From Aptenodytes patagonicus (lineage: Eukaryota > Chordata > Aves > Sphenisciformes > Spheniscidae), in the NCBI RefSeq assembly GCF_965638725.1, contig NC_134975.1, positions 1,748,179 to 1,812,178 of the forward strand: a stretch of 64,000 nt of DNA, given 5' to 3'. Under the pieces are notes generated by a model. The model made no database searches. It was not told the origin of the DNA and saw only the letters and a program-made list of their open reading frames with translations. Positions within the stretch are counted from its first letter, which is position 1. Each line of letters opens with the position of its first letter. A program made the translations under genes and the position numbers. Shown here one piece after another: positions 3,829 to 63,256 of the stretch.

Positions 3829-6800
3829 ATGCCGTGCGGAGCCTGCGGCCGGGTGGTGCTGGTGCTGCTGACCCTCTCCCTCGGCTTCGCAGCCGGTGAG
3901 TACCAAAACGATGCGGTGAAGGCGGCCGGTGCCAGATGCTCTCTGCCACGCACAGGGGGTTAAAATAAGCCCTCGGCTCTTTGGGAACATCATCGCTTGC
4001 TCTGCTCAAAATAAACTGCCACAGAGGGCAGCTCATTCAAGCTCGCCTCGAGTGAGAACCGAGGGAGGCAGGGCTCCTCGGGGACCCGCACCATCCCCAG
4101 CGAGGGGCTTCTCCCTTCTGGGACAGTGACCTGTGTCCCAGAGAGGATCTCAGCTTAATTAATTACGGTTCATCAAGTGCTTTGACGTCACTAAAGGGGA
4201 GATGGGAAAAAGGCTTGCACGCACGTGCTTTAAAATGTGTTTTTTCCCAGGGGTGATGGTGCTGATGGTGGGGAGCAAGGACGAGCTGGTCGTGATCCCA
4301 GGGGAGCACCAGGGTGACCTGGGGACAGATCCAGGCTGGGTGCTTGTGCAGGGAGGACCGAAGCAGTGTGGCTGTGCTGGGGAGGAGCAGCAGAGCTCAT
4401 TGGGGGGACGAGTGCCCACCGGGTCCCCATCCTGCCCACGGGGCCACCAACCCCCAGGGCTTACTGACCCAGCCCCACCACTACCCCATGGCCCTGGCAC
4501 CAGGCAGCTTTTGGGGCAGGGGGGCGACAGGCGCAGGAGGGGGGCTGGCCACAGCCATCCGTCCCCTCACTGCCGTCTGTCTGGCTGCCCTCGCGCTGAA
4601 CTCGTTGATTCCAGGAGAGATATTTTCTGCGCGAAAGGGCAGAGCTAAATTGGGAGGTTGGGAACGTGGCCGCCCCCCATGCTGCTCCGGCACTGCGGCG
4701 CGGGGAAGCGCCTTCGGGGCGGCCGGGGAAAGCTTCAGGAAAGACCCCAGGTTTGGCACCCAGCTCCGGAAACGCAGCATCCCCGCGGCACCCGCTGGGG
4801 AGGCACCAGCTGAGTTTGGGGCTTTTGGTCCCACCCTGGCTCCCGGGACCCGGCTCCCACAGGCGGCCCCAGAGTGGGGCACTCCCACTTCCCCTGGGAC
4901 CCCGTGGGCAGGATGTGACCCTGTGTGCTGTGAGCCAGTGCATCCCAGTTAATCCCAGCTGGTGGGGCTGGATGCACAGCCCCTCCACTGCCTTTCCGGG
5001 GGTGCGGGGACAGGCGACCCTCAGCTTTGGGGCTGGCACTTGGGTCCCAGCCAGGAGCAAGCAATTTTCCAGGAGGTCTCAGGATGGGCTTCCGTGTGCT
5101 GAGCACCCGCAGCCACCTTCTCCAGCCCGGACCACGGTGGTCCCAGGCTGCCCGCTCTCGAAATTTGGTTCAAGTGTCTTTAGGACAGATGTCACTGTCC
5201 CCAAAGCTGCCAGCGCGCCCCAGCCTGGGCAGCAGGGCGGCCCCATGGCGCAACGCACCCCCTCCTCGTGCCCACAGAAGAGCTGCTGTGTGCCTGCGAC
5301 GTGCCGCACTGCAGCCTGCCCACCTGCACGGGAAAGGTGTGCTTCGTCAGCAAGAGGAAGGAGGAGGGGATCATCACCCAGCACAGGGGCTGCTTCTCCC
5401 AGAACATCCTGGAGAACTGCCGCACGCCCGTGACGGAGCAGTACGGCACGAGGTGCTGCGACTCCAGCATGTGCAACGCCGAGCTGGAGATCTTCCTGCA
5501 AGGTACGGGGGCACAAGTCCCCTTCGAGGAGCCGGGGGGAGAAGGGCAGAGCTGCCCACCCAGCTGGAGATGTGGTTGGGTCTCTAGGTCATCCCCCTCC
5601 TCACTCAGCACCTCCAGGGTCACCCTTTCCCAGGTGGGACAGGGCCAGCGAGATGTCCTCAGGTGTCCCTTCTTGGGCTGTGCCTGCAGAGCTGCCATCC
5701 ATGGGGTTGACCCTAATGCAGAGCCACCCTCCCCAGGTCCAAGCCCAAGCACCAAGACCTCCACCCTCCCAGGTCCACCTTCATGCTCCCATCCATTGTT
5801 TCCCCTCCCAGGAGAAGAGGCCCTAGGAAAGGCGCCTTCCCTGCCCAACCTCCTCCTGATGATCTTTGTCCCGCTGCTCGCCCTCCTCGTCCTTGCGGCG
5901 CTCATGGCACTCTTCTGCTGGAAGGTGGCCCAGCAGCGCCACAAGAAAAGCGACATGGGAGACACAGACCTCATGCTGAAGGCATCCATGGTGGGAGACA
6001 GCACTTTGGAGGTGGGTGCGCTCCGGGAAGGACCCAAAATGCCCCTGAGGCGCAGGAGGGAGGGACATGCCGTGTGTGGGGTGGCCATTGGGCTGACCCT
6101 GCTGCCATCCCGGCTGCACAGGACTTGCTGAACGACGACTGCACCACAGGCAGCGGCTCGGGCCTGCCCTTCCTCGTCCAGCGAACGGTGGCTCGGCAAA
6201 TCACCCTCGTGGAGTGTGTGGGTAAGGAGAGCAGCCGGGCACAGGGGGAAGCTGCCCCGGCCCCCACAGCCAGTGCTTGGGCATGTGCCAGACCCCTTTC
6301 CCCCAGCAGCCAGCGATGGCACCGCGACACCAGACCTGGGAGGGGGGATTGGACCCAACCATCTCAGCCAAAATGCCATAGAGACCCCAAGTTCTCCCCC
6401 TGTCCAGCTGATGGAGGAGGGAGAGAGCGGCTGGGTGGGTGGGTGGCAGTTGGCCAGGGTCAATGGACCCTGCGCCACTCCGTTGCTCTTCCACACTGGG
6501 AGCTGGGTTCATCATGCTGGGTGTGGGGAGGTCGCTGGGGGTTGGAGGGGCCGCGTGACGCAGTGCCGCGGCCGTGGCAGGCAAAGGACGCTATGGCGAG
6601 GTGTGGCGAGGCATGTGGCACGGGGAGAGCGTGGCCGTGAAGATCTTCTCCTCCCGGGATGAGCAGTCATGGTTCCGTGAGACAGAGATCTACAACACCG
6701 TCCTCCTCCGGCACGACAACATCCTGGGTGAGTGGGGGACCGGGGGGGCCGGGAAGCAGCTGCATGGCGGCTCCATGGTCCTGGCTCTTCTCCCCGTCCA

Positions 6801-62800: not shown

Positions 62801-63256
62801 CCGGGACCACCCCCCCCCGCCCCGGGACCCCGCGCTCACCCAATGTGGTTCGTCCTCAGGCTGATCTCCAGCTCGCGCAGGACCTTGGTCGACTCCTGCA
62901 CCCTCCTTCTGAACTTCTGGGGGCAGAGCGAGGCTGAGCCGTGTCCCCCCGGCCCCCCCCCAGCCCCCCTGGAGGCCTCCGCTCCCCCCAGCCCCTCACC
63001 TTCCGCGTGACGCCCGGCTCTAGGAAGCTGCGCAGTTTCTGGATGTAGGCGTGAGGGGGGCTCTTCACCTGGAACCGCTCCTGGGGGGGACAGGGGGGGT
63101 CGGTGACACCCGCACGGCAGCACAGCCCCCCCCCAGGACCCCCCATCCCCCGTCCCCCCCCCAGCCCCCCACCTGGTCACAGATGAGGTCCCACTTCTTC
63201 TCATTGTCGTACTGGCGCAGGAGCCGGGCTTTGTCTGGGGGCAGGTTCATGGAGCT
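53850..63256 (-). CDS. FMNL3: Formin-like protein 3 (partial, first coding exon outside window)
   Basis: Actin nucleator and elongator of filopodia and lamellipodia, regulated by Rho GTPases. 25 coding exons on the - strand: 63256-63173, 63080-63000, 62916-62840, 61350-61267, 60913-60761, 59443-59335, 59243-59167, 59088-58995, 58714-58640, 58548-58438, 58362-58213, 58036-57935, 57854-57614, 57420-57352, 57067-56943, 56852-56650, 56049-55815, 55716-55648, 55500-55420, 55311-55182, 55101-54941, 54592-54491, 54378-54289, 54173-54062, 53941-53850. All phases agree; 968 residues. The N-terminal exon of about 40 residues with the myristoylated start lies beyond the right edge. GBD/FH3 1-400 (opens [13 protein letters not shown]), polyproline FH1 430-500, FH2 about 500-890 ([34 protein letters not shown]), DAD 905-950 ([12 protein letters not shown]). 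The tail [17 protein letters not shown] and HHDES identify FMNL3 rather than FMNL1/2. Confidence 0.96.
54655..54905. repeat. GTGCAAAGCAAGG minisatellite in FMNL3 intron
   Basis: About ten units of 18-36 bp built on CGTGCAAAGCAAGGC and GTGCACGAGGGC, in the intron between exons ending 54941 and starting 54592. Confidence 0.85.
56090..56625. repeat. CCCCCTGCACCCCAGCCAG minisatellite with 201-bp tandem duplication
   Basis: Units of about 22 bp fill the FMNL3 intron between 56650 and 56049. Within it a 201-bp block is present twice in tandem without a visible difference: ACCTGCTGCACACCAGCCAG starts at 56221 and again at 56422. The duplication is in frame multiples, so it also appears as a repeated 67-residue pattern in non-coding frames. 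Confidence 0.95.
60010..60660. repeat. GGTGCATGGCACAGCACACACC minisatellite in FMNL3 intron
   Basis: About twenty imperfect units of 25-40 bp built on GCAGGACGGTGC and ATGGCACGGCACACACCA. It fills much of the intron between exons ending 60761 and starting 59443. A 669-codon open frame on the - strand runs through it and is an artefact of the repeat. Confidence 0.9.
61725..62165. repeat. GT/G-rich repeat with alternating purine-pyrimidine runs
   Basis: Loose units of GTGTGCATGGGGGG, GGTGCACGGG and GTGCGTGTGC in the 1.5 kb FMNL3 intron between 62840 and 61350. G runs reach 14-15 bases near 61758-61773. Confidence 0.8.

Follow-up and report, generated by a model that had tools for sequence, protein, structure and literature searches.

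A compact, probably HOXC-linked ohnologue block in Aptenodytes patagonicus with a shortened candidate RPRM3 gene

The chromosomes bearing the HOXA, HOXB, HOXC and HOXD clusters form a paralogon (CLGB). Human 2q23-24 holds FMNL2, RPRM, NR4A2, CYTIP, ACVR1C and ACVR1 in that order (Table II of PMC2680219, which lists no strands), spread over megabases with unrelated genes interspersed; PRPF40A, ARL6IP6, GALNT13, KCNJ3, GPD2, GALNT5 and ERMN stand between the members in the same source. Here we describe a stretch of the Aptenodytes patagonicus genome, 64,000 positions long and called the window throughout (C27:1748179-1812178), in which paralogous partners of these six genes, together with ATG101, are packed into 59 kb, and which has relatives on HOX-dense contigs, four in number with its own. 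The orthologous human genes, FMNL3 and the series ACVRL1-ACVR1B-TAMALIN-NR4A1-ATG101, are on 12q13. FMNL3 and ATG101 are about 2 Mb apart there, and the region is not known to hold a Reprimo gene.

A third Reprimo paralogue, RPRM3, has been described in fish as a single-exon gene that arose in the two rounds of whole-genome duplication (2R) (available text of PMC6073456 and PMC5451059). The former source has it kept only in cartilaginous fish, holosteans, teleosts and coelacanths and lost in all tetrapods, and the accessible text of papers that name RPRM3 reports none from a tetrapod. The window contains a single-exon Reprimo-family open reading frame (ORF). We consider it very probable that 2R quadrupled an ancestral block of which the window represents the HOXC-linked copy, and that this Reprimo gene is a shortened third paralogue, RPRM3. 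The HOX paralogon was already known; the new element is the Reprimo gene at the expected HOXC-side site. A literature search gave nothing useful on the block as a paralogon or on avian loss of its genes, and the text of PMC8449477 names none of the block genes.

The block and its partner on contig C6

In the window ACVRL1, ACVR1B, TAMALIN, NR4A1, ATG101 and the Reprimo gene lie on the + strand and FMNL3 on the - strand. Whole-genome searches (1,352,360,349 bases in 618 contigs) locate partners of six of them on one contig, C6: FMNL2 at 74,858,409-74,864,952 (+), RPRM at 75,024,452-75,024,781 (-), NR4A2 at 75,741,520-75,744,292 (-), CYTIP at 76,037,817-76,037,996 (-), ACVR1C at 76,061,706-76,064,500 (-) and ACVR1 at 76,113,778-76,128,801 (-). 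All six names were checked by visual inspection of the exon translations. Starting at the FMNL gene, C27 and C6 agree in the order and relative strand of every pair (6/6): FMNL3/FMNL2, Reprimo ORF/RPRM, NR4A1/NR4A2, TAMALIN/CYTIP, ACVR1B/ACVR1C and ACVRL1/ACVR1. The chance of one exact signed order, in either direction, is 2/(6! x 2^6) = 4.3e-5, conditional on the six pairs. The block measures 59.4 kb in the window and 1.27 Mb on C6 (the latter by matched exons only), and is thus approximately 21-fold more compact in the window.

An earlier, sequence-only reading had placed these seven genes on these strands and compared them with human 2q as a set of ohnologues. Spliced models and PDB searches bear out all seven genes and their strands; the bounds it gave, 3829 and 63256, fall on the first ACVRL1 codon and on the outer boundary of the first FMNL3 exon in the model. 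The human order it gave agrees with Table II of PMC2680219, as far as that table goes (order only), and the proposed collinearity of six pairs is found within the same genome on C6. It called the match of six genes unusually complete; it omitted several human 2q genes and PRPF40A, which on C6 lies at 74.89 Mb (-) between FMNL2 and RPRM. The reading of the genes as ohnologues is supported, and the status of the Reprimo gene as a third paralogue goes beyond what had been proposed.

Such omissions raise the question of whether collinearity is an artefact of selecting six genes and ignoring others, since ATG101 and the 2q genes that are not shared were left out and the figure of 4.3e-5 is conditional on the chosen pairs. 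We regard this as very improbable: every window gene except ATG101 has a partner, the six partners lie within one 1.27-Mb segment of one contig, and CACNB, picked from the human neighbours before its position in this genome was found, also fits. A search with the guanylate-kinase domain of CACNB gave 19 exon matches, at one locus each on C2, C6, C20 and C27. The C6 locus (74.557-74.573 Mb, -) adjoins FMNL2, and that on C27 (658.4-659.3 kb, +) lies about 58 kb past the FMNL3 side of a second copy of the window, which is described below; by position the two are CACNB4 and CACNB3, respectively. With this second copy as reference, CACNB is a seventh pair that matches in order and strand.

The window genes were modelled with a spliced aligner written for this analysis, with human protein sequences not drawn from a database as baits; human sequences in the comparisons are mostly of the same kind, and the PDB comparisons used real sequences. 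ACVRL1 (ALK1; 3829-8970, +) has a signal-peptide ORF that starts with the ATG at 3829 and eight exons at 5289-8970; its model is identical to human ACVRL1 at 337 of 462 residues and scores 583 bits to ACVRL1 vs 548 to ACVR1 in the PDB search. ACVR1B (ALK4; 21659-27834, +) has eight exons, with the signal-peptide exon outside the model, and 438/475 identities to its human counterpart. TAMALIN (GRASP; about 32586-36643, +) has approximate 5' exons and a C-terminal ORF that stops at 36643, modelled exons beyond that stop being spurious; 199/337 residues are identical to human TAMALIN with the poor ends counted, and the PDZ domain scores 140 bits to TAMALIN vs 92 to CYTIP. NR4A1 (43363-45695, +; six exons) matches human NR4A1 at 408/572 residues, N-terminal domain included. 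In the PDB search it matches the NR4A family with a ranking that does not separate NR4A1 from NR4A2; its last exon shares 69/84 residues with human NR4A1 and 67/84 with the NR4A2 of the same genome, a slight lean towards NR4A1. FMNL3 (53853-63256, -) comprises 25 exons (14 and 11 in two models), the first 42 residues lying outside the model. Identities are 439/502 in the N-terminal part (bait residue 43 onwards) and 416/464 from FH2 to the C-terminus. FMNL3 has Pfam matches to FH2 and Drf_FH3, and its top PDB match is 4eah (772 bits); the 19 PDB matches include no chain of FMNL1 or FMNL2. ATG101 (48976-49765, +; two exons; 203/218 identities) is the sole member without a paralogue, as had been noted from the sequence: the whole-genome search returned four exon matches, none of them outside the two C27 copies.

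The Reprimo-family reading frame

An RPRM query finds four places in the genome: RPRM on C6 (160.8 bits), RPRML on C20 (120.7) and the two C27 copies of the ORF (40.3 each). In the window the ORF occupies 50853-51068 (+), a single exon of 71 residues with a transmembrane segment (maximum 19-residue hydropathy 2.68) and the motifs FFLGCNLL and RRPS. It is identical to the RPRM of this genome at 28/58 and to its RPRML at 24/52 positions, and 25 alignment columns are invariant across the ORF and human RPRM and RPRML. Alignment scores of 124 (RPRM) and 118 (RPRML) compare with maxima of 56 and 44 among 2000 shuffles each, the shuffles being plain ones that do not preserve the hydrophobic stretch. 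The ORF is situated between NR4A1 and FMNL3 just as RPRM is between NR4A2 and FMNL2 on C6, and RPRML on C20 is likewise on the 3' side of FMNL1, on the opposite strand. It is a third Reprimo paralogue beside RPRM and RPRML, and because it occupies the expected position in the block we infer that it is RPRM3.

The ORF is without most of the N-terminal domain of RPRM and RPRML and without their conserved C-terminal end. Ahead of the position at which the transmembrane segment of RPRM starts there are 17 residues in the ORF and 55 in RPRM. The ORF does not have the long N-terminal domain with N-glycosylation sites of the Reprimo family; it has one NAS sequon, at residue 2, and RPRM carries N-glycosylation sites at 7 and 18 (available text of PMC6073456). 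The short N-terminus marks a shortened member of the family and does not disprove membership. The zebrafish RPRM3 protein, compared here by length and description only, has 103 residues vs 71, and zebrafish rprm3 is on chromosome 23 (same text); its expression is in the nervous system (PMC5451059). HOX-type matches occur on C27, the contig that carries the ORF, which is lettered HOXC from neighbours only. Zebrafish chromosome 23 presumably carries hoxca, an assumption for which the literature search gave no paper.

A derivative of RPRM or RPRML that arrived by retroposition or relocation, in a block that is otherwise ohnologous, would also be short and single-exon, and the identities of 28/58 and 24/52 make a fast-evolving derivative conceivable. 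The absence of introns cannot tell a retrocopy from an ohnologue because Reprimo genes are single-exon. The ORF nevertheless has an FMNL member to one side and an NR4A member to the other and lies on the strand expected, an arrangement shared with RPRM on C6 and in keeping with the site of RPRML on C20 (3' of FMNL1, opposite strand), and it is closer to neither RPRM nor RPRML. We therefore judge this origin improbable.

Somewhat less improbable, though still unlikely, is that decay of RPRM3 has left this ORF as a remnant that happens to be open and makes no protein. In favour of decay, little of the N-terminal domain is left and the conserved C-terminal end is missing; the 0/216 differences between the C27 copies are uninformative on this point. 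The frame, however, is open through the transmembrane segment and RRPS and identical in both copies, and its 25 invariant columns with human RPRM and RPRML are hard to reconcile with long neutral decay. A shortened RPRM3 thus stays the preferred reading; from its sequence features the candidate would be a small single-pass membrane protein, and it may be expressed and functional; RPRM itself arrests the cell cycle.

The HOX paralogon and the age of the pairs

A HOX9-type homeodomain search gives four dense sets, on C2, C6, C20 and C27, which we letter A, D, B and C, respectively, from their neighbours. C20 also carries FMNL1 (-) and RPRML (+), 1.3 Mb apart, and C2 carries NR4A3 (+) and TGFBR1 (-), 38 Mb apart on opposite strands. 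Relative to the HOX paralogon as described, the HOXC (beta) block here equals the HOXD (alpha) block in how many of the six families it retains, and keeps them in order.

In the receptor tree (human rows not drawn from a database; three of the rows from this genome partial) each gene groups with its human namesake: ACVR1B (99/100) and ACVRL1 (99/95) of the window, and ACVR1C (99/99) and ACVR1 (98/97) from elsewhere in this genome; ACVR1B and ACVR1C are sisters at only 79/91. The FMNL tree, poorly rooted since its outgroup DAAM1 is too distant (branch 5.85), supports pairing within FMNL2 (100/98) and within FMNL1 (100/100). The shortest path from window FMNL3 leads to mouse FMNL3 (0.11, against 0.40 to FMNL2), and the two FMNL3 sequences are not a supported clade because of the root. 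By trees for the receptors, path lengths for the formins and identities and PDB scores for NR4A and TAMALIN/CYTIP, with the Reprimo pair undated, the pairs appear to have split before birds and mammals diverged, and the earlier expectation that they are not recent local duplicates is upheld. ACVRL1 and ACVR1B are in tandem in the window, as ACVR1 and ACVR1C are on C6, which suggests that the two receptor genes were adjacent before the block was duplicated.

The fourfold pattern and the age of the splits point to a 2R origin. The block would have been quadrupled by two whole-genome duplications at the base of vertebrates, and differential loss and compaction of the HOXC copy, now on a small GC-rich contig, would have followed. 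The HOXD-linked twin on C6 would have lost none of the six duplicated genes and preserved their order and relative strand; FMNL1 and RPRML would have stayed on C20 (HOXB), and NR4A3 and TGFBR1 on C2 (HOXA). A segmental duplication within vertebrates that copied C6 to C27 could account for an agreement of order and strand that is unusually good for so old a split. It is not readily reconciled with members that appear to have separated before birds and mammals, with the same partner order on human 2q (Table II of PMC2680219), or with further paralogues on the other two HOX contigs and one CACNB locus on each of the four; we give it hardly any credence, and a whole-genome origin is preferred.

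Some retention patterns bear on how the HOX chromosomes pair as products of the second round. Members of the tamalin/CYTIP and ALK1/ALK2 families are kept on HOXC and HOXD and absent from HOXA and HOXB, and over the six families six losses are needed if C pairs with D and eight for either other pairing; this shared retention and absence hints that HOXC and HOXD are sisters. The trees do not decide the matter: ACVR1B joins ACVR1C at 79/91, but FMNL2 groups with FMNL1 (90/96, with a very distant outgroup), which leans against that pairing, and PMC7269912 leaves the pairing open. It is a tentative proposal, for which we would claim a possibility rather than a likelihood, that at least one bird keeps a working RPRM3, reduced to a transmembrane segment and cytoplasmic tail, on a GC-rich microchromosome, that the published tetrapod loss is wrong, and that HOXC and HOXD are second-round sisters.

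Several results count against a HOXC-linked 2R copy with an RPRM3 gene. CYTIP is one weak exon match (E 2.8e-4, 46% identity), backed by its translation and position. PRPF40A has no counterpart in the window in a Pfam search (E 0.001, + strand, 51.0-58.2 kb), and PRPF40B, which in human sits beside FMNL3, was not found there in that search or in a WW search, which has no match on C27 and three over the whole genome, two at PRPF40A on C6 and a weak one on C12. Sodium-channel, CACNB, PRPF40 and other baits have no match in the window and 48 loci (L003-L050), and the whole-genome search finds no CACNB near the window itself. The HOXA copy is not collinear here because TGFBR1 and NR4A3 are 38 Mb apart on opposite strands. 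Over one 92-residue exon ACVRL1 has 75/92 identities to human ACVRL1 and 74/92 to the ACVR1 of this genome, and therefore single exons do not decide every pair. The Reprimo ORF has no Pfam match, is divergent and about equally far from RPRM and RPRML, and with 0/216 differences between the C27 copies gives no significant sign of constraint.

Sequence setting and significance

Contig C27 spans 3.13 Mb. At C27:537,120-600,607 (L013-L019), 1.21 Mb away, the whole window is repeated in the same orientation. The five main matches are 97.5-99.3% identical, and alignment over 64,000 window positions shows 332 mismatches, of which 12 fall in the 8,786 coding bases of the models and 320 in the other 55,214, together with 159 window bases opposite gaps. 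Both haplotypes placed in one contig and a recent segmental duplication fit these figures. Elsewhere on the contig (834245-986025) three HOXC-region homeodomain matches are duplicated as mirror images around 0.91 Mb, the pattern that a fold-back of the contig would give; other HOXC homeodomain matches on C27 are not mirrored.

Guanine-cytosine (GC) content is 58-78% across the 2-kb bins of the window outside 14-32 kb. At 14000-32000 an 18-kb low-GC segment (41-57% in 1-kb bins) holds ACVR1B and its flanks and is surrounded by far GC-richer sequence, with a transition of about 2 kb on each side. Conservation is much higher in ACVR1B than in ACVRL1 and NR4A1, the GC-rich genes nearby. TMBIM6 (L007:4046-5453) is just outside the window and adjoins FMNL3 on its 5' side; the two are adjacent on human 12q13 as well. 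Minisatellite arrays stand between genes at 10903-12190, 40000-40573, 48154-48630 and 53183-53720, and another (56087-56608) is inside an FMNL3 intron; a comparison is offered by the repeats that, according to the available text of PMC12954441, have expanded locally in ohnologues of bird dot chromosomes. Rfam gives 0 matches in the window at gathering scores, and no CR1-tail motifs were seen in the window or 50 further loci.

The avian keratin family has 150 scored matches among 380 candidates, mostly on C20 and C26 with some on C2 and small contigs, and 0 matches in 14 control genomes, which are undescribed; beta-keratins also occur in other reptiles, so this result shows a sauropsid. Genome size and GC content point to a bird microchromosome, and a count of four HOX9-type sets instead of seven or more speaks against a teleost. 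A bird as the most likely host is judged from keratins, genome size and GC. Large arrays are found at C20:6.06-8.32 Mb, C26:1.44-1.58 Mb and C2:331-86222. At the start of the C2 contig keratin copies are spaced every 4,112 bases, and the regular C20 array changes strand midway.

The families of the block comprise type I receptors of the TGF-beta family, a PDZ scaffold, an orphan nuclear receptor, a protein of autophagy initiation and a formin. Each gene presumably keeps its own family role; the block does not act as one unit and is explained by history.

If the identification of RPRM3 is true, a gene lineage presumed absent from land vertebrates would be represented in a tetrapod. A 2026 survey of bird ohnologues took, by its available text, only ohnologues with a human orthologue (PMC12954441), and RPRM3 would therefore lie outside its coverage. 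The seven-pair collinear block, with both copies in one genome (on a 77-Mb and a 3-Mb contig), would be a clean case for the study of compaction and protein divergence, and would also be useful for asking which HOX chromosomes are second-round sisters.

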